From the IMG/VR virus record IMGVR_UViG_3300025009_000255, positions 1 to 37,685 of that record: a stretch of DNA of 37,685 bases. The stretch is one strand, 5' to 3'. Position 1 is the stretch's first letter, and each line of letters starts with the position of its first letter. Positions 1,327 through 37,653 of the stretch are shown piece by piece. A model generated the notes under the pieces. The model saw nothing but the letters and a program-made list of their open reading frames with translations, was not told the DNA's origin and searched no databases. The DNA comes from a virus. Position numbers and translations under genes: made by a program.

Positions 1327-3663
1327 TTACGCTGATGTTGTTGTTGTTGTCGTTGTACTTGTAGTGGTGGTTGTAGTAGTGGTTGTAGTTACCTCGGTAT
1401 AAAGGCCTGAAAATGTCATTACTATTTCCAAGGCATACACATCTGTACATAATGCTGTTAATTCAATAGCATTCAAATCACTTGAATCATACCATGTAGA
1501 ATATGCTTGTGTACCTTTTAATGCCTGATACACATTTCCATTACCAAAATTACCATAAGCCTTAACTACCACACTTGCACAATGCTTTCCTAAATCATGC
1601 TGAATAGTTAAATCTGTGGCATTGGAACCCAATCCAAAGCCATAATTAATGGTTGCTGAATCATCTACTGTCCAACCATATTCCTGTGTAAATGATCGGG
1701 TAACAACAGAACCACTTCCGGCTGTTGCCGAAACAACATAAACAGTTGAATTTGCACCTATGGAGCTACTTATCTTACTTGCACTCCATAATTCCGTTGC
1801 ACTTGTTCCACTATCATTAATAATTCTGTGTTGCGCAACGCTATAATTATCTAAACTGTCATGGTCTATTTCAGCCTCAACTACAGATACTACGCTTGTA
1901 GTTATATCAATCCCATTACCTTCTGTTAAAGCATCTAATTTAGCATCAAAGGTTTGAAAATCAGTAGAGGTTAAATATCCTGATTGGGTTGCTGATGCTT
2001 CTTGTGTAACAATAGTATGTTGTGCTGCTGTTAAATGATAATATTCACTTGTAGTTCCACCCTGCAAATTATCTAAATTTCCATGTACTATATCAGCCTC
2101 TATCTGTGCTGTTAACACAATATTTGCTATACTTTCAATCCCTGTTGCTGTGAACCTGGCAATCTCTCCTGATGTTCCACCACTTGCATCATTTACCAAT
2201 AGAGCATTTGTATTGGCAATACCAAAAGTCAATGAATCTTGTTTGCCATCCAATTGATCTTGTATAAGAGAAGTAACTCCATCACAATAATTCAATTCAG
2301 CATAAGAAGCTGTTAGATTATTTATAAAAGTATATGCTGTATTCCAATTTGTTTCCTCTGTAGTAGTGGGTATAACATATCCTGATGTTAAACTAAATTC
2401 TCCTGTTCCATCATTATAAGTAAGTCCTAATGCTGTTGATTCCAGACTTATCAGTTTAATATAATCAGTTAATGCTGTTGCCACATAAGAAACAACATAG
2501 GCCTTATCTACTAAACTTCTGTCGGTATATGTTCCAGACAAATCACTTCCATAATTTACAATTGCACTAAATGTTCCCCCTAATGCAGCAGAAACATAAT
2601 CAGAAAGACTTCCTACAACACTCAATACCCCTGAATTATTTTCAATAGTAGTACCATCAACCAAATCAGCTAAATAGCTTGCTGTGCCGGCTGATGTCAT
2701 TTTTACCTTTTCGTCTGTATTGGTGAAAGAAAATTGATTTTCAAATGGCACAATTTCCTCCACCTCAGGATCATCTCCTTCTAATATGGCATAAACTCTT
2801 AATGCTGAATCATAAGCATCTGCTAATTCCTGATAGTCCAGACTTAATATGTAATGAATTAATGATGTGCTTAGTTTCATTATGTTTTCTTCCAGTTCTA
2901 ACACATTATACCCACTAACCCCTTTTTGTGTATAATATGTAGTTGTATAGGCATACAATAAATCCCTGAGAGCATCCATGTCTATATTATATGCTGTATC
3001 GGTGTCTGTTAATGTTTCAACAGAATATATTTGCAACCCATCTGCCATAGTATATAATATGGTGGAGGTAAGTTCTGCTTCGTATTCACCGGAATAAATA
3101 TTAGCTGCATAAGATACAGTAGGGTTTGAACCCATACTTGTTACTGTATTGCTCCCTTCTGCCATTCCTGACCCTGTAGGTGGTGTTATAGTTAGAACCC
3201 TTGATATTGTGGTTGCATAAGCAGATGAAGCATAAGTAGTACTTTCAATACATGAAAAAGTGGAATTATATCCATCAATGGTAAACGTTACCGCAAGAGT
3301 GGGTTCAGTAAAACTATAAGTATAAGAAACTGATTTTGTATATGTCTGAATAGCATTTACTCCATCTATTACTTGTACTGTATATTCAAAGGTATATGTT
3401 CCTGCTACTACATAAACTCCATCCAAGGGTAAAACAAAGTCTTTATACATTGTTCCACTTGACCCTACTATATCTGATGAAGCTCCATAACTTGTATTAT
3501 TATACATCACCACACTGTTTGCAGCAGTAAGTTTTATATTGCCATATACATAACTTACATTTATCCCTTCACCTGAATAATCTGTGTTATCCGTAAATCT
3601 TACATATTTTGCTGCTACATTAAGATAAAATCTTGGTGTAAAGCTTAAATCAGAATTTTCCAT
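1327..3663 (-). CDS. Large virion/tail-fibre-like protein with C-terminal poly-threonine tail
   Basis: A 778-residue protein rich in Ser, Thr, Ala and Tyr, with predicted beta-rich repeats. The middle (~residues 480-640) has fibre-like segments such as SLTFGIANTNALLVNDASG and EYYHLTAAQHTIVTQEASA, which resemble phage tail-fibre and neck-appendage repeats. The last ~25 residues are almost pure threonine with a few serines, ending SA. A second gene at the other end of the late operon (17311-17841) ends the same way. The leader contains a TAnnTTTG box and a segment nearly identical to that before the portal gene. It follows a hairpin terminator at 3700-3727. Virion role is inferred. Confidence 0.7.
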   Translation of the reverse strand: MENSDLSFTPRFYLNVAAKYVRFTDNTDYSGEGINVSYVYGNIKLTAANSVVMYNNTSYGASSDIVGSSGTMYKDFVLPLDGVYVVAGTYTFEYTVQVIDGVNAIQTYTKSVSYTYSFTEPTLAVTFTIDGYNSTFSCIESTTYASSAYATTISRVLTITPPTGSGMAEGSNTVTSMGSNPTVSYAANIYSGEYEAELTSTILYTMADGLQIYSVETLTDTDTAYNIDMDALRDLLYAYTTTYYTQKGVSGYNVLELEENIMKLSTSLIHYILSLDYQELADAYDSALRVYAILEGDDPEVEEIVPFENQFSFTNTDEKVKMTSAGTASYLADLVDGTTIENNSGVLSVVGSLSDYVSAALGGTFSAIVNYGSDLSGTYTDRSLVDKAYVVSYVATALTDYIKLISLESTALGLTYNDGTGEFSLTSGYVIPTTTEETNWNTAYTFINNLTASYAELNYCDGVTSLIQDQLDGKQDSLTFGIANTNALLVNDASGGTSGEIARFTATGIESIANIVLTAQIEADIVHGNLDNLQGGTTSEYYHLTAAQHTIVTQEASATQSGYLTSTDFQTFDAKLDALTEGNGIDITTSVVSVVEAEIDHDSLDNYSVAQHRIINDSGTSATELWSASKISSSIGANSTVYVVSATAGSGSVVTRSFTQEYGWTVDDSATINYGFGLGSNATDLTIQHDLGKHCASVVVKAYGNFGNGNVYQALKGTQAYSTWYDSSDLNAIELTALCTDVYALEIVMTFSGLYTEVTTTTTTTTTTSTTTTTTTSA

Positions 3664-3753: not shown

Positions 3754-4701
3754 TTATTTTTGTAATACTTTTTCTCTTTCGACAACTTTTTCAGCCATTA
3801 AATCTAATATATCCCTGTGATCTGCAAGAAAATCCCTTAATTCAGGGTATTTATCTTCAGAATTAATCACAATACATATATCATTTCCAAATTTCCCTTC
3901 CTCCGGCATCCATCTCCATTTATTCTTTTCTGCATCAAAAGCAATTACCATTTCTGATTCAGCAATATTTATAGCTGCCAATATTTGAATATCTTCACCC
4001 ATTTCTACCCGGTCAAGAAACTCATTATATCCTTCTCCCTTACCACCTGATTTCTTCTCGGCAGTTACTACCTTTTTCTTTAATTCTCTCCTTATGATAG
4101 ATAAATCAAGGTTTTTAACCCCTCTCACTCCATAACTTGCAGCAATCTGACGAACATCTTTTTCTTTCAAATATTGATTGGTAAAAATAACCTGCATTAC
4201 ATTGGTTTCAAGCAAGTCATATTCAACTTCTTTCTTAGCTTCTAATATTTCGCTTCGTACAATGAATTCATCATTATATCTGTCTGCCATGATGAATATC
4301 AGGAAAAACAATAAATCCAATTGACTTTCATTAACATAAGCATCTTTGCCTAATACATAATGCGATGGATTGGGATTCATATTCTTTTCTTTATCCCTTT
4401 TTATTGCATTAGCAGAATAAATCCAATCACCACTTAAACTTTGATTTTTAGAAGTAATTGTTTTTACACAACGATACCTTTTTGGAGCTGGCCATTCGGC
4501 TACTTTAGAATAAGCGTTTACACTTCTGAATTTCGGATGAAACTGAAAATGTATGGGCCATTTAACTTTTTTAGGATCCGCACTGCCATTAGAAATTTCT
4601 TTATAAAAATCTTCAATAACACCAAAAGCCTCTTTTTCTAAGGCACTCATAGAAACTTTCTTTTTGTTGAGGTCTACTCTTTCTTCGTTTAAGTATAACA
4701 T
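3754..4701 (-). CDS. Unknown late structural-module protein (315 residues)
   Basis: I do not recognise a family. The protein is soluble and charged with no signal peptide. A hydrophobic helix is seen near residues 128-138 (LDLLFFLIFIMA), followed by basic, helical stretches, and residues 225-290 look like a small folded C-terminal domain. It sits immediately downstream of the major capsid gene, separated by a terminator-like hairpin, where phages commonly encode head-completion, connector or tail proteins. The leader carries ACACACAC just before the ATG, shared with two other late genes. A structural or assembly role is inferred from position only. Confidence 0.6.
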   Translation of the reverse strand: MLYLNEERVDLNKKKVSMSALEKEAFGVIEDFYKEISNGSADPKKVKWPIHFQFHPKFRSVNAYSKVAEWPAPKRYRCVKTITSKNQSLSGDWIYSANAIKRDKEKNMNPNPSHYVLGKDAYVNESQLDLLFFLIFIMADRYNDEFIVRSEILEAKKEVEYDLLETNVMQVIFTNQYLKEKDVRQIAASYGVRGVKNLDLSIIRRELKKKVVTAEKKSGGKGEGYNEFLDRVEMGEDIQILAAINIAESEMVIAFDAEKNKWRWMPEEGKFGNDICIVINSEDKYPELRDFLADHRDILDLMAEKVVEREKVLQK

Positions 4702-17310: not shown

Positions 17311-17841
17311 CTAAGCACCTGCCGTTGTTGTTGTGGTGGTGGTTGAAGTTGTTGTTGTTGTAGTGGTGGTTGTAGATGTAGTAGTTACATCACCAGACAA
17401 TACCGTTAACTCTAACAACGAATGATTAACCTTATACCTTCTTTTCACTGACTTAATACCAGGTCTTTCGTCATATTCAACATATGATTTCAGTGCATTG
17501 TCAGGGTCAGCCCAGGCAATGATAAAATTATCCTGTTGAACAACCAATGTTTTCACATAAGCTTTACCCTTTCTTTCCAAAAGGTTCATTGACATAACCT
17601 CTCCTTTGTCGGTATTTGACATATATCCGCTTGCCCCTGCTACCGCAGCATAGGTATCATCGAGCAGATAACTATCTACATGGTTTAAATCCCTATACCA
17701 GATAAGGCAGTCGGCCCCTGATGCTTGGGTTTCACATGAGATGATCCTTCCTGAATTTAAAACCCTTGTTTCCGAACCATCGCCAAAGGTCTTTCCATTC
17801 TTTTCTTTAACTGTTGCTTGAAATAAATTTTGTGCAGCCAT
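17311..17841 (-). CDS. Small virion-like protein with C-terminal poly-threonine tail
   Basis: 176 residues. Residues 1-~148 form a compact, probably beta-rich domain with no signal peptide. The last ~25 residues are nearly all Thr with two or three Ser, ending AGA. The same tail type closes the 778-residue protein at 1327-3663. It is the first gene after the leftward late promoter and likely highly expressed, as expected for a decoration or minor head/tail protein. Three glycosyltransferases follow, suggesting its Thr tail may be O-glycosylated. Virion location is inferred. Confidence 0.65.
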   Translation of the reverse strand: MAAQNLFQATVKEKNGKTFGDGSETRVLNSGRIISCETQASGADCLIWYRDLNHVDSYLLDDTYAAVAGASGYMSNTDKGEVMSMNLLERKGKAYVKTLVVQQDNFIIAWADPDNALKSYVEYDERPGIKSVKRRYKVNHSLLELTVLSGDVTTTSTTTTTTTTTSTTTTTTTAGA

Positions 17842-24737: not shown

Positions 24738-25856
24738 CTAATGGCTTACGTTAGCGTACAAAGGGTTGTCCCTAACCCCAAAATTCTTTATATTATATGC
24801 AGCATTCAAATCCCTATCTATTGAATTATTACACTTATCACAATTGTAAGTTCTATCTGAAAGTTTTAAATCTTTCTTGTGATTTCCACAATTAGAACAT
24901 ACTTTACTGCTTGGTTCAAATCTGCCAATTACAACAAGATTTTTACCTTGCCATTCAGTTTTATATTCAAGCATTGTTCTTAATTGTCGCCAACCCATTT
25001 CAGATATGGCTTTAGCTAAATTATGGTTCTTAACCATATTACTAACTGCTAAATCTTCTAATACAATTGTGTTATACGTGTTTACTAATTCAGTAGATAT
25101 TTTATGCAAGTAATCAGTCCTTTGGTTACGGATTTTTTCTTGCAATAATGCTACTTTTAATTTTTGTTTTTCTCTATTTATTGAACCTTTCTGTTTTCTT
25201 GCAAAGCTTCTCTGTTCAACTCTTAATCTTCTTTGTTGCGATTTGAAAAAGTTTTTATTTTCATACACCACACCATCAGAAGTAATTGCTAAATCTTTAA
25301 TCCCAAAATCAATACCAACAGATGTTTCGGATTTAATTGGTTTTTGCTTTGGTTTTTCTATTTGTGTATCAACCAATATTGATACAAAGTATTTACCAGT
25401 AACAGTTTTGCTTAATGTAACTCTTTTTGGTAATCCTTTGAACAATCTATGATAATCAATAGCAACCTCTTTTAATTTAGGTAATTTTAAAATGTTGTTA
25501 TCAAAATCAACCTCAAAACCTTGTGGAAATGTAACTGACTGCTTAGAGTATCTATTCTTGTATTTAGGAAACTGACCTTTGCCTTTAAAAAAGTTTTGAT
25601 ATGCTGTATCTAAATTGATAATACTATGTTGTAGTATTTGACTTGGACATTCTTTAATGTAATCAAATTCCTTTCTTAATTCTGGAAGTTGTTTAATTAA
25701 ATCATATTTAGATATTGATGTTTTATTTGAAGCATACGCAACAGTCTTGGTCTCTAAACCAAGATTATATACCAATCTATTTACACCAAAATACCTTTGT
25801 AATTGGTTTTTTTGGTCATCCGTTGGGAATATTCTGTATTTGTATCCTTTAAGCAT
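24738..25856 (-). CDS. tnpB: TnpB RNA-guided endonuclease (OrfB_IS605)
   Basis: 372 residues. The RuvC active site appears complete: Asp183 in SVGIDFGIKDLA, Glu267 in IVLEDLAV and the acidic DRDLNAAYNI motif at 347-349. A zinc ribbon is intact (Cys320, Cys323, Cys339, Cys342). N-terminal features typical of the family (YKYRIFPTDDQ, VYNLGLE) are present. TnpB cleaves DNA next to a target-adjacent motif, guided by an RNA from the element's right end, and favours retention of the element. It is divergent from tnpA, with a hairpin-rich gap between them. Confidence 0.95.
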   Translation of the reverse strand: MLKGYKYRIFPTDDQKNQLQRYFGVNRLVYNLGLETKTVAYASNKTSISKYDLIKQLPELRKEFDYIKECPSQILQHSIINLDTAYQNFFKGKGQFPKYKNRYSKQSVTFPQGFEVDFDNNILKLPKLKEVAIDYHRLFKGLPKRVTLSKTVTGKYFVSILVDTQIEKPKQKPIKSETSVGIDFGIKDLAITSDGVVYENKNFFKSQQRRLRVEQRSFARKQKGSINREKQKLKVALLQEKIRNQRTDYLHKISTELVNTYNTIVLEDLAVSNMVKNHNLAKAISEMGWRQLRTMLEYKTEWQGKNLVVIGRFEPSSKVCSNCGNHKKDLKLSDRTYNCDKCNNSIDRDLNAAYNIKNFGVRDNPLYANVSH

Positions 25857-25943
25857 ATATTATTAAATAGTCTAAACTTTTGTAAAAGTACAACATTTTT
25901 ATCTAAATTACAAGTTTTGGTTAAATTTATTTTATTTGATACC

Positions 25944-25996
25944 GTATTTTGTTTAAATCATTCCGTCTTTGGTTGTAAATAATTTAAACAAAATAC
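25944..25996. repeat. 15-bp perfect inverted repeat upstream of tnpA
   Basis: GTATTTTGTTTAAAT (25944-25958) and ATTTAAACAAAATAC (25982-25996) form a strong hairpin ending six bases before the tnpA ATG. In RNA it could hide the tnpA start, as known for other IS200-type elements; as DNA it could be an operator between the divergent genes. Confidence 0.7.
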
Positions 25997-26002
25997 TACA
26001 TT

Positions 26003-26407
26003 ATGCAATCAAATTACATTTCTACAAATCATTCAAAACACTATTTAAAATGTCATCTAATTCTCGTTACTAAGTATCGTAAAAATATGTTAGTTGGTCA
26101 ATTAAATGATGATTTAAAAGATATATTCAGTTCCATAGCAGATAACTCAGATTTTGAAATAGAAGTTATGGAGTCTGATGTAAACCATATTCATTTCTTA
26201 ATTAGGTACATACCTCGCCTATCTATATCCCAAATGGTTCGTAGGCTTAAACAAGAATCTACTCGTCAGTTATGGTTATTGCATCATACTACTTTACGTC
26301 AGTATTATTGGTATCGTAAAATACTTTGGAGTGATGGGTTCTTCGTTTGTTCAATAGGTGAAGCAAGTCCAGATACTATCCGTCAATATATTTTAAGCCA
26401 AGGTTAA
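26003..26407 (+). CDS. tnpA: TnpA, Y1-type HUH transposase (IS200/IS605)
   Basis: 134 residues, near-normal length. The HUH metal-binding motif is HIHFL (His62, His64) and the candidate nucleophile is Tyr129 in TIRQYILSQG. The opening KHYLKCHLILVTKYRK and LSISQMVRRLKQES are standard for the family. It would excise and insert the element as single-stranded DNA at a short target sequence. It appears intact, so the element may be active. Confidence 0.93.
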   Translation: MQSNYISTNHSKHYLKCHLILVTKYRKNMLVGQLNDDLKDIFSSIADNSDFEIEVMESDVNHIHFLIRYIPRLSISQMVRRLKQESTRQLWLLHHTTLRQYYWYRKILWSDGFFVCSIGEASPDTIRQYILSQG

Positions 26408-33416: not shown

Positions 33417-33602
33417 GTGGAAACAGTAAATAGTACAACAAAGAAAATAGATAAAAAAAATGCTAAGATATTTGTTTTGTTAATTTTTATTTTTGGTTTA
33501 GTTGCTTTCTTTAGCTATTTGATTGAAAATTATGAACCCATTATTTCGGATAAACCCGAACCCATTCTTGAAGGATGGGAGGAAATAAAAATTGTTGACT
33601 AA
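33417..33602 (+). CDS. Small single-pass membrane protein, last phage-like gene before the cassettes
   Basis: 61 residues from a GTG start, with a transmembrane helix IFVLLIFIFGLVAFFSYLI after a basic Lys-rich N-terminus and a short acidic tail. It carries an exact phage motif copy (33535-33545) in frame. Its stop codon is embedded in the first attC-type site. No matching cassette start is seen upstream, so it looks like a phage gene at the junction with the array rather than a cassette gene. Confidence 0.55.
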   Translation: METVNSTTKKIDKKNAKIFVLLIFIFGLVAFFSYLIENYEPIISDKPEPILEGWEEIKIVD

Positions 33603-33727
33603 CGGTGGTGGTATGGTTAGTTGCCGATTGCGGACGACACACTATCCATCGACACAGAATTACAAGCGGGTGGTAACGCTTAAAATTAGTACTAATACGG
33701 CAATTAACTATACCACGGGTTAGCTGC
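33594..33727 (+). other. attC-type site A
   Basis: Left GTTGACTAAC (33594-33603), right GTTAGCTGC (33719-33727). The 19-base arms 33608-33626 and 33698-33716 pair with two G-T-type mismatches. About 130 bases, the size of long chromosomal attC sites. Its left end has no matching cassette start. Confidence 0.75.
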
Positions 33728-33997: not shown

Positions 33998-34031
33998 GCA
34001 GCTAACGACTACGGCTATGCACATGTAATTT
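33998..34031 (+). other. Truncated attC-type site B
   Basis: GCAGCTAAC (33998-34006) is complementary to the cassette's own start (33719-33727), followed by a left-arm sequence ACTACGGCTATGC. No right arm or GTTRRRY follows, so half of the site and the start of the next cassette seem deleted. Confidence 0.6.
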
Positions 34032-34054
34032 TAACGACTTAAAAACGAGGAATA

Positions 34055-34387
34055 ATGACACAAGAAGAATTTAACAAAGCACCGTTATTAAACCAAATAC
34101 TGTACGATGAAACAGGTATGTTGGTAGAGAACCACCCAAGTATTGCCGAAGCTATGGAGAAATACCACCAAGCTAAGTTAAAATTATTGGGTATAGCCGA
34201 TGTATCTGTAAAAATTACGGATATGATACACATAATTAACTTTGTAGTAAAATCATTGGCAACAGTAATATTATTTTTTCCAATTGGTGGATGTTTGACA
34301 TTACTATCAATAGTATTTTGGGATGCAAAGTATCTCGAAGTTGGGAATGATATATTGGAAAAAATGATATGGAAGAAAAGGCAGTAA
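34055..34387 (+). CDS. Cassette gene: small membrane protein (110 residues)
   Basis: 110 residues with a soluble helical N-terminal part and a hydrophobic segment at ~residues 70-90 (ATVILFFPIGGCLTLLSIVF), ending KKRQ. No family recognised. It lies between the truncated site B and attC site C; its own cassette start is missing. Confidence 0.55.
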   Translation: MTQEEFNKAPLLNQILYDETGMLVENHPSIAEAMEKYHQAKLKLLGIADVSVKITDMIHIINFVVKSLATVILFFPIGGCLTLLSIVFWDAKYLEVGNDILEKMIWKKRQ

Positions 34388-34429
34388 TTTTCACTGTGCC
34401 TAACGTGACGCAAGTATGAGTAGTGCGAC

Positions 34430-34733
34430 TTTGGAACACGAAACTTTGAATTAATAAAAGAACTAATAACAAATATTTTATGGCTTGGAAAACCGACAAA
34501 CTTCCTTTAGAATACCTACAGCAAAGAGTAAGGTATTATGAAAAGGCAATCAAGAAAACAAAAAAATTAAAAGAAACGGGTTTGATTGTTGGCGATATAG
34601 AATACACAGACGAAGATTTTGAGAGGTCTATAAAAAATTGTGAATACCTTTTGAATGAATTTAAAAAAGCAAGCTATCTAATTGCTGAAAATATGGAATA
34701 AAATATTTGTTATGGCATTTGGAACACTAAACT
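34430..34733 (+). repeat. 288-bp insertion flanked by 16-bp direct repeats inside attC C
   Basis: TTTGGAACACGAAACT (34430-34445) and TTTGGAACACTAAACT (34718-34733) agree at 15 of 16. Inside, a 16-bp perfect inverted repeat (34466-34481 and 34698-34713) tightly frames the gene at 34480-34701. No transposase is present; origin unknown. Confidence 0.7.
34480..34701 (+). CDS. Small protein within the attC insertion (73 residues)
   Basis: 73 residues, helical and charged (YLQQRVRYYEKAIKKTKKLK and on). No domain recognised. Start and stop codons both fall in the flanking 16-bp inverted repeats, so the gene and the repeats seem to form one unit. Confidence 0.5.
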   Translation: MAWKTDKLPLEYLQQRVRYYEKAIKKTKKLKETGLIVGDIEYTDEDFERSIKNCEYLLNEFKKASYLIAENME

Positions 34734-34804
34734 CGATTTTAAGCACAGCAGTAAGCATTACTTATACTTGTTAGTTGCAGTACTTTATTTAAAATTAATT
34801 GATT

Positions 34805-35530
34805 ATGAAATATATGGGAAGCAAGGCGAGATTTACAAAAGAGATTTTGCCGATTATTTTAAAAGATAGAACAAACGAGCAGTGGTACATTGAGCCGTTT
34901 GCTGGAGGTATGAACGCAATTTGTGAGGTTGGGGGCAAACGAATAGCAAACGATATTCATTACCATTTAATTCAAATGTGGAAAGAACTTGTTAGCGGTT
35001 GGATTCCAAAAAAGATTACCAAAGAAGAATATTTAGAAGTAAGAACAGACCAGAGCAAATACCCTGCATATTTTGTTGGGTGGGTTGGTTTTAACTGCTC
35101 TTATTCGGGCAAATGGTTTGGTGGATTTGCTGACGACTACCCTGAAAGTAGAAGAAATAAAAATGGAATTTTACCAAATTACCAAATGGAAGCAATAAAC
35201 AACGTCCCTAAACAGGTTGAAAAAATGAAAGGTGTAATATTTCAAAATAAACCATACTATAAATTGGATTTGCCACCAAACAGTATTATTTATTGTGACC
35301 CACCATATAAAGGCACAACTAAATATGCTAATAACTTTAACCATATCATTTTTTGGAATTGGGTAAGAAATATAAGCAAACAAGGACACACTGTATTTGT
35401 GAGTGAATACAATGCACCTTCCGATTTTAAATGTGTTTGGGAAAAAGAAACAAATAGTCAACTATCAGCAAACGGCAAAATTGGAGGCAACAAAGTATCA
35501 ACGGAGCGTCTTTTCTTGTATTGCAACTAA
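34805..35530 (+). CDS. Cassette gene: D12-class adenine-N6 DNA methyltransferase
   Basis: 241 residues from the ATG at 34805 (a TTG six bases earlier is disfavoured). The SAM-binding motif lies in YIEPFAGGMNAI (~28-39) and the catalytic motif DPPY at 165-168, the alpha-type order of Dam/D12 enzymes. It opens KYMGSKARF as that family does. It methylates adenine in double-stranded DNA at an unknown site, with no partner nuclease nearby. The stop codon sits inside attC site D. Cassette D runs 34771-35572. Confidence 0.9.
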   Translation: MKYMGSKARFTKEILPIILKDRTNEQWYIEPFAGGMNAICEVGGKRIANDIHYHLIQMWKELVSGWIPKKITKEEYLEVRTDQSKYPAYFVGWVGFNCSYSGKWFGGFADDYPESRRNKNGILPNYQMEAINNVPKQVEKMKGVIFQNKPYYKLDLPPNSIIYCDPPYKGTTKYANNFNHIIFWNWVRNISKQGHTVFVSEYNAPSDFKCVWEKETNSQLSANGKIGGNKVSTERLFLYCN

Positions 35531-35617: not shown

Positions 35618-36268
35618 ATGAATTTATTAGAATTATTTGCAGGATCGAGAAGCGTGGGAAAAGCAGGTGAACAATTAGGAATGAATGTTTTTTCAGTCGA
35701 TTGGGAACAATACGAAAATATAAACCTTTCAATTGATATTGGAGAATTAACAAAAGAAAATGTACCTTTTATTCCCGATGTAGTTTGGGCTTCACCTGAT
35801 TGCACTACTTACACAATTGCTGCAATAAGCACACACAGAAATAAAACAGAACCAAAAAGCGATTATGCTAAAAAATGCGATACCGTAAACCAACACTTTA
35901 TTGGATTAATTAAAGAATGGTTGGTTATAAATCCAAATATGGTATTTTTTATTGAAAATCCAAGAGGTATGATGAGGCATATGGAATGGATGCAAGAATT
36001 TAAACGACATACTGTTTGGTATTGCCAATATGGAGATGATAAGGCAAAGCCAACAGATATTTGGACTAATTCAAAAACTTGGATACCACGACCAGAATGC
36101 CACAATTACAAGTATGATAAACAAGGTAATGTAATTAATAAACATTGCCACCACGAAAGTGCAAGGCGTGGAGCAAAAACAGGAACACAAGGCAGAAACG
36201 GACATTATGAACGATCAAAGATTCCACACGAACTTTGCAATGAGGTACTTCGTAGTGCTTGTTGCTAA
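35618..36268 (+). CDS. Cassette gene: cytosine-C5 DNA methyltransferase-like protein
   Basis: 216 residues. Motif I is LLELFAGSRSVG (3-14), the catalytic loop is WASPDCTTYT with Cys62 (Pro-Asp-Cys rather than the usual Pro-Pro-Cys), and motif VI is FIENPRGMM (Glu113). It is short and lacks a large target-recognition domain, like many phage versions. The Cys-rich region near residues 155-180 may bind metal. It methylates cytosine if active; the Asp next to the Cys is unusual. Its stop lies in attC site E. Cassette E runs 35573-36385. Confidence 0.82.
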   Translation: MNLLELFAGSRSVGKAGEQLGMNVFSVDWEQYENINLSIDIGELTKENVPFIPDVVWASPDCTTYTIAAISTHRNKTEPKSDYAKKCDTVNQHFIGLIKEWLVINPNMVFFIENPRGMMRHMEWMQEFKRHTVWYCQYGDDKAKPTDIWTNSKTWIPRPECHNYKYDKQGNVINKHCHHESARRGAKTGTQGRNGHYERSKIPHELCNEVLRSACC

Positions 36269-36393
36269 CGTTGAAGCTATGACCAGTAAAGGATTACGGA
36301 GCGATGAATTATCAAAATACACCGAACTGGATGTGAGCTACAACGTTGGATTACCCACTAAAACCTTTATTGGTTATAGCTTGTGTTAGCAAA
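36261..36393 (+). other. attC-type site E
   Basis: GTTGCTAAC (36261-36269), arm AAGCTATGACC (36274-36284), facing arm GGTTATAGCTT (36372-36382), right end GTTAGCAAA (36385-36393). About 133 bases with a long unpaired middle. Confidence 0.8.
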
Positions 36394-36819: not shown

Positions 36820-36894
36820 TTTGCTAACGAACGGTGGTATGGTGCGGCTTGTGTTGCGCCTTCGGCAAGCTGCATTATACCACATGTTAGGCAC
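36820..36894 (+). other. attC-type site F
   Basis: TTTGCTAAC (36820-36828) is complementary to its cassette start GTTAGCAAA. The 18-base arms 36834-36851 and 36866-36883 pair with a few G-T positions; the right end is GTTAGGCAC (36886-36894). At 75 bases it is a classic attC size. Confidence 0.85.
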
Positions 36895-37553: not shown

Positions 37554-37653
37554 GTGCCTAACGTTTTGCGTATAAGAGATGTGGCACTTATACGAATGTT
37601 TAAATCAAGGCACAAAGCCCAATGTGCCATATCTTTTATACGCTGTTATGTGC
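37554..37653 (+). other. attC-type site G
   Basis: GTGCCTAAC (37554-37562) is complementary to its cassette start GTTAGGCAC. The 20-base arms 37568-37587 and 37624-37643 pair with three mismatches; the right end is GTTATGTGC (37645-37653). The following bases begin another cassette cut off by the window. Confidence 0.85.

Follow-up and report, generated by a model that had tools for sequence, protein, structure and literature searches.

An attC-like site that encloses a complete gene between its two arms raises the question of whether the gene landed in the site or belongs to it. The window, meaning the whole stretch of 37,685 bp that was analysed, is IMG/VR virus record IMGVR_UViG_3300025009_000255 and carries phage structural and packaging genes. 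From position 33,597 to its end the window is composed of small genes and DNA methyltransferases with attC-like hairpins between them, and the site in question (site C, 34398-34777) is part of this array. The first-pass annotation had read it as a 288-bp insertion bordered by a direct repeat.

Architecture of site C and its array

Site C opens with an R'' box and a left arm and closes with a right arm and an R' box, and about 330 bases separate the two arms (Table 1). The outer arms (CAAGTATGAGTAGTGC at 34411-34426 and GCATTACTTATACTTG at 34755-34770) were found to be complementary despite their distance, as the first-pass annotation had noticed, and the 16 paired positions (14 Watson-Crick and 2 G-T pairs) form the imperfect hairpin of L'' and L' arms that is expected of an attC site. 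The R'' and R' boxes flank these arms at the ends of the site and in the right order. GTTAG of R' occupies 34770-34774, and the R' sequence GTTAGTT fits GTTRRRY at 5 of 7 positions, with the same boxes present in related ordinary sites. The length of 378 bp lies outside the range of known attC sites and far exceeds that of the short-loop sites found here.

Both repeats that had been described for the inserted segment were recovered. The direct repeat, TTTGGAACAC(G/T)AAACT, is identical at 15 of 16 positions with a start-to-start spacing of 288, and a repeat this good and equally far apart occurred in 3 of 1,000 dinucleotide shuffles of 34392-34786. The inverted repeat that frames the gene (34466-34481 and 34698-34713) pairs at 16 of 16 positions and overlaps the start and stop codons of the 73-codon ORF; none of 1,000 such shuffles matched it (maximum 14). 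On the transcript a chain of ORFs would run from MSSATLEHETLN through the 73-aa ORF and MAFGTLNSILSTAVSITYTC to the methyltransferase of the next cassette.

The 73-codon ORF most likely encodes a small accessory protein of the phage. The product was predicted to form a two-helix structure (pLDDT 87), for which a fold search gave no significant match, and its sequence had no match to Pfam, PHROGs or NCBIfam above the cut-offs used. A search for homologues returned the same phage only from viral contigs and none from genome contigs or phage records. Family searches of the site C loop gave no transposase-like match, in agreement with the first-pass annotation. Elsewhere in the window, an IS200/IS605-like pair is located at 24738-26407, where a minus-strand TnpB-like ORF (phrog_506 transposase match) adjoins a TnpA-like ORF at 26003-26407 that is called from its own sequence.

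The same site C sequence and array are present on a second IMG/VR contig of 72,079 bp (L002/G001), which ends at the same base, so site C is not an assembly error of a single contig; the two contigs may be assemblies of one phage population. No TIGR02249 match (integron integrase) was detected in the records of the window phage (G000 and G001), and the array is classed as CALIN and not as a complete integron since none is present in these records, which may be fragments. Among 12 related records with such sites, which may also be fragments, there was likewise no integron integrase, and one Xer-like match fell below the cut-off. An Xer-like tyrosine recombinase adjoins the attC-like array of the L048 contig (G521, 4220-4999, minus strand); it scored 83 bits against the IntI model, which is short of the cut-off, with model positions 178-254 unmatched. 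Rfam searching identified zero families within the window. Further from the array, two minus-strand ORFs (1327-3663 and 17311-17841) end in long threonine-rich tails (TTTTTTTTTTSTTTTTT).

A second long site is tentatively placed at 33998-34210. Its right arm (ending in GGTATAGCCG) falls within an ORF at 34055-34387, and its local alignment score of 15 was also reached in 4 of 283 random placements.

Table 1. Features of site C and of the surrounding array (window coordinates).
Feature	Position	Strand	Basis or remark
Ordinary attC-like site, 124 bp as measured by the scan script	33597-33725	+	Site scan
Candidate second long site	33998-34210	+	Left arm ACGGCTATG at 34010; degenerate R'
R'' box, GCCTAAC, fits RYYYAAC	34398-34404	+	Same position TCATAAC in L004 and GCATAAC in L023
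Left outer arm (L''), GCAAGTATGAGTAGTGC	34410-34426	+	Pairs with 34755-34770
Short ORF of left half, MSSATLEHETLN then stop	34416-34454	+	Frame 0 reading; putative translation
Direct repeat, left copy, 16 bp	34430-34445	+	Repeat search and shuffles
Inner stem, left strand, ATAACAAATATTTTAT	34466-34481	+	Ends in start codon
Loop gene, 73 codons	34480-34701	+	ORF between inner-stem strands
Inner stem, right strand, ATAAAATATTTGTTAT	34698-34713	+	Contains stop codon; reaches next ATG
Short ORF of right half, MAFGTLNSILSTAVSITYTC then stop within R'	34712-34774	+	Frame reading; putative translation
Direct repeat, right copy, 16 bp	34718-34733	+	Repeat search and shuffles
Right outer arm (L')	34755-34770	+	Pairing with left arm; RNA fold
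R' box, GTTAGTTG, boundary after first G	34770-34777	+	Downstream-cassette homology to L009 starts here
Dam-type (MethyltransfD12) DNA methyltransferase, next cassette	34799-35530	+	ORF from TTG 34799; ATG at 34805
Short attC-like site, TCGTTTTAATG loop	35523-35580	+	Read from sequence
Ordinary attC-like site, 124 bp	36263-36391	+	Site scan
Ordinary attC-like site, 66 bp	36822-36892	+	Site scan
Ordinary attC-like site, 91 bp	37556-37651	+	Site scan

Recurrence of the frame and its inner stem

Pattern scans with the loop sequence identified the flanks of site C (about 62 bp on the left and 60 bp on the right) at two other loci, IMG/VR record IMGVR_UViG_3300017523_000266 (L004) and the Bacteroidetes MAG contig DUOU01000099.1 (L023). 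There the flanks enclose ORFs of 68 and 78 codons, respectively, both unrelated to the 73-codon ORF of the window, while the right flank is 90-95% identical over about 61 bases among the three. The two copies of the direct repeat were found to differ from left to right in the same manner in each frame, with AACTTTGAA at the end of the left copy and AAACTCGATTTTAAGCAC at the end of the right copy; across the three frames the left copy reads AAACTTTGAA or GAACTTTGAA and the right copy AAACTCGATTTTAAGCAC. As this difference is identical in 3 of 3 frames, the repeats belong to the frame and are not a target-site duplication, and the 288-bp insertion proposed in the first-pass annotation did not hold as a recent event with a target duplication. 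A transposon that generated a target duplication is rejected on the basis of the frames in L004 and L023. The short ORF of the left half is longer in L023 (MSSATLEHETLNKNRTNN then stop) and L004 (MSSAPLEYRTLNNHRTNN then stop), and that of the right half runs without a stop through R' in both. The L004 element has a GC content of 37% within a contig of 58% GC, which is consistent with its arrival as a unit.

Searches for the frame in other collections yielded few matches. The right half was detected among 395 Bacteroidota genomes in the L023 genome only, with four weak matches attributable to chance, and its sole match in phage records was a hairpin in Cellulophaga phage phi39:1. Among 117 genomes of the L023 family, the left half had a strong match in L023 only, and a plasmid search returned one weak partial match.

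Seven further gene-in-loop sites were identified in all (L004, L023, L069, two in L076 and two in L132), and in every one the ORF is enclosed by an inner inverted repeat particular to that site. The loop ORFs are of 99 aa in L069 and of 60 and 61 aa at positions 4455 and 5646 of L076; the R' of the former L076 site is GTTGT, and the latter has clear arms without clear R boxes. This occurrence of the same layout with different genes in several unrelated phages indicates that the layout is a recurring way to pack an extra gene and not a one-off insertion. In the window, L004, L023, L069 and both L076 sites, the ORF is framed by an inner inverted repeat of 10-16 bp, and 36 of 2,352 control ORFs of 50-150 codons reached an inner-repeat score of at least 10. 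Eleven control ORFs also had outer arms that scored 9.5 or more, some of them being ordinary cassettes with their own R' and R''. The site scan and the inner-stem test were devised after the first cases had been seen, and L132 served as a check on loci chosen otherwise: its 84-aa ORF with a perfect inner stem of 21 bp and its 70-aa ORF with one of 12 bp, both preceded by an R''-like box, were the two top-ranked of 872 ORFs from later loci fetched mostly by the short-loop pattern.

The inner stem was also examined for covariation in the three sites that share a frame, by use of an alignment anchored outside the stem, in the sequence that flanks it. Each of the 42 cells paired (100%), and 6 of the 14 pairs were changed on both sides; none of 500 shuffles matched this, and sliding the alignment by 1-3 bases reduced pairing to 36-52%. 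These compensatory changes, in three sequences only, show selection of the inner stem for pairing. A chance origin of the stem is ruled out by the shuffles, the control ORFs and the covariation. In 6 of the 8 sites an ATG follows within 12 bases of the stop codon (TAATTATG in L004, L023 and L069). Directly after R', a hairpin of 28-30 bp is present in L004, L023, L069 (near 11,100), L076 (near 5,510) and L132 (after the 84-aa gene); it has a TCGTTTTAATG loop, joins R' to the next R''-like sequence and resembles an empty mini-cassette. This loop also caps several attC-like sites of about 50 bp and an intergenic hairpin in Cellulophaga phage phi39:1.

Short-loop relatives, start codons and folding

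A search for uninterrupted versions of the site had been proposed in the first-pass annotation, and sites with the arm core of site C (TATGAGTAGTGC and GCATTACTTATA, with 55-85 bases between them) were indeed found in 17 viral contigs. That annotation had set an insertion into an intact shorter site against one long form conserved in many cassettes. The outcome was mixed: short-loop relatives of the arms do exist, as an insertion would have it, and the long form, too, recurs as a conserved type of site, which goes against an insertion. In 5 of the 17 contigs the short loop contains an ATG that opens an ORF of 66-313 codons extending past R'; loops of other kinds, with no long ORF, are present in others. 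Near-identical and apparently structured loops that lack a long ORF and may possibly be RNA elements were seen among L121, L125, L126, L129 and L132 and among L127, L133 and L135, with the motifs GGATGGACAACAACTGTAATA and AGGGGTGTCACCCTGCGGAGAT.

The wider group was surveyed by a simple search for the order R'', arm, arm and R' in 1.22 Mb of loci that had been fetched by use of two methyltransferase cassettes. Sites of ordinary length numbered 41 compared with 1 in reversed sequence, with lengths clustered around 88 and 120-132 bp. When the scan was relaxed to admit lengths of up to 330 bp, it gave 81 distinct sites (93 before removal of duplicates) compared with 13 in the control, and 78 of the 81 were on the methyltransferase strand. 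Among distinct sites of 110-330 bp, a loop ATG with an ORF of at least 20 codons past R' was observed in 26 of 49, whereas the opposite strand gave 6 of 49 (Fisher P = 2.8e-5, with related sites not fully independent). From this excess it appears that translation of the next cassette commonly starts within the attC loop in this group. Ordinary sites with a leader and ATG in the loop include L041:4385-4509, L048:1567-1697, L067:4521-4653 and L009:447-576, among others, and the next-cassette ORF in such sites crosses the right arm and R' and extends up to 272 codons. The phase in which an ORF crosses R' carries no information, since one of the phases meets a stop in GTTAG.

Folding differed between the strands. 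Both the outer and the inner stem were present in the RNA fold of 34392-34786 (z -2.4; 0 of 100 shuffles as good) and in the top-strand DNA fold, whereas the bottom strand retained the inner stem and lost the outer one. The minimum-energy RNA folds of L004, L069 and the first L076 site lacked the inner stem. Mismatches in the arms were 91 G-T compared with 21 A-C on the top strand, so pairing is better in the top strand and the RNA than in the bottom strand. It is the bottom strand that recombines in known attC sites, where it folds better than the top strand and has extrahelical bases. The strand bias and the bottom-strand fold thus favour a role in RNA or in the top strand and form the main argument against a standard attC. 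On the side of cassette exchange, the methyltransferase cassette aligns with L009 from GTTAGTTG onward, while the attC upstream is quite different. The cassette boundary is therefore located between G and TT of R', and this position, after the first base of GTTAG, fits exchange of cassettes at R'.

Origin of the gene-in-loop layout

The reading that we prefer, with a probability of about 0.6, is that site C is a gene-in-loop variant of a phage CALIN attC, in a Bacteroidota phage, which would move as a unit and whose ORFs would be coupled in translation. It is built on what can be read from the DNA, namely the paired arms, a frame that recurs around different genes, compensation within the inner stem and a cassette boundary located at R'. 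An attC loop that already held a leader and a start codon may have grown to hold a whole gene, which would then travel with the cassette, the gene, loop and arms being transferred together as a single unit. Ribosomes could cross the short ORF, the loop gene, the right-half ORF and the next cassette by termination-reinitiation and leave the hairpin open; the inner stem may be retained because it closes the loop such that the site can fold, or because it couples the translation of two ORFs. Counted against this reading were the partial fit of R' to its consensus, the lack of an integrase in the records searched, the length of the site, the strand bias, the bottom-strand fold of site C, the boxes of L076, the three RNA folds that lack the inner stem and the small number of sequences, three, behind the covariation.

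That the stems act in mRNA only, in translational coupling or stability of a small-ORF operon at a site that no longer recombines or never did, is possible though we doubt it. The predominance of G-T pairs on the top strand, the loss of the outer stem from the bottom-strand fold alone and the phages without an integrase in the records searched all point in this direction, but the arms are flanked by R'' and R' boxes, the downstream cassette boundary falls exactly at R', and an attC of a related phage is recombinogenic (PMC9892861). Somewhat less probable is a nested arrangement, in which the inner stem and its gene form a mobile module that passes from one attC loop to another, through a recombinase or through homologous exchange within the frame that the loops share. 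The outer frame of the window, L004 and L023 is about 90-95% identical with the gene and inner stem replaced, homology ends within the inner stem, and the same inner-stem plan is present in different outer sites. However, the inner-stem sequences differ, which leaves a recombinase without a shared end to act on, the search did not find any one module in two different outer frames, and neither a donor nor an empty version of the window/L004/L023 frame was found. Such 'inside-out' cassettes of phage integron arrays, with the loop gene pinned by its covarying inner stem and hairpin-plus-gene modules swapped between attC frames as a second level of exchange nested in the first, are a rather unlikely prospect.

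Two decayed attC sites that flank an ordinary cassette, the upstream one without its right half and the downstream one without its left half, could likewise yield arms that match through group likeness, since both halves have the TTTGGAACACNAAACT loop motif and the arms of different sites have TATG..GTGC and GCATTAC-type motifs in common. This is unlikely, and markedly so: the same double loss with arms in register would be needed in L004, L023, L069, L076 and L132, and the inner stem covaries. Most improbable is a small non-autonomous transposon that landed once in an attC loop with a 16-bp target duplication. Such an event would account for the 15-of-16 direct repeat at a spacing of 288 bp with inverted repeats inside it, yet it is contradicted by the recurrence of the frame with other genes in L004 and L023 and by the like difference between repeat copies in all three. 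Moreover, terminal repeats are not shared, and the direct repeats, which are part of the conserved frame, stand off from the inverted repeat by 20 and 4 bp on its outer side, an arrangement that does not suit an insertion sequence or mini-transposon, in which the target duplication would directly adjoin the terminal inverted repeats.

Integrase-less phage attC arrays, methyltransferase cargo and short ORFs in attC are already known. Among the closest parallels to the gene-in-loop attC that we favour is Polaribacter phage P12002L, whose attC2 recombines with attI1 (Qi et al. 2023, PMC9892861); the phage likewise has a Bacteroidota host, and its CALIN is alike in combining attC-like sites with DNA methyltransferase genes and lacking intI, and unlike in that loop genes or loop start codons are not described in the parts of that paper covered here. 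An ORF within the attC hairpin can also help translation, since ribosomes that read it open the hairpin and reinitiate beyond it (PMC8876359, citing Jacquier et al.). The same may apply here, but that ORF is a short helper, whereas the present sites hold a complete ORF of 60-99 codons and a covarying inner stem. The 133-bp veb1 attC illustrates that loop length varies among cassettes without destroying the site (PMC3518468); unlike it, site C is 378 bp with a gene in its loop. A term-based literature search, with few subscription journals among the partial texts that it covered, returned no description of complete genes or next-cassette starts in attC loops.

If the preferred reading is true, attC sites in these phages would be more than recombination signals, as they could also provide the start codon for the following cassette and at times house a whole gene in the hairpin, and they would offer a directly testable case for the loop size tolerated by the integron integrase and for translation through a hairpin. 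Integron annotation tends to miss loop genes; for example, the ACID database allows an ORF-attC overlap of at most 15 bp (PMC2674596). In the site scan performed here, P12002L also has long-loop sites, including one of 406 bp in which the annotated HNH endonuclease gp59 starts in the loop.
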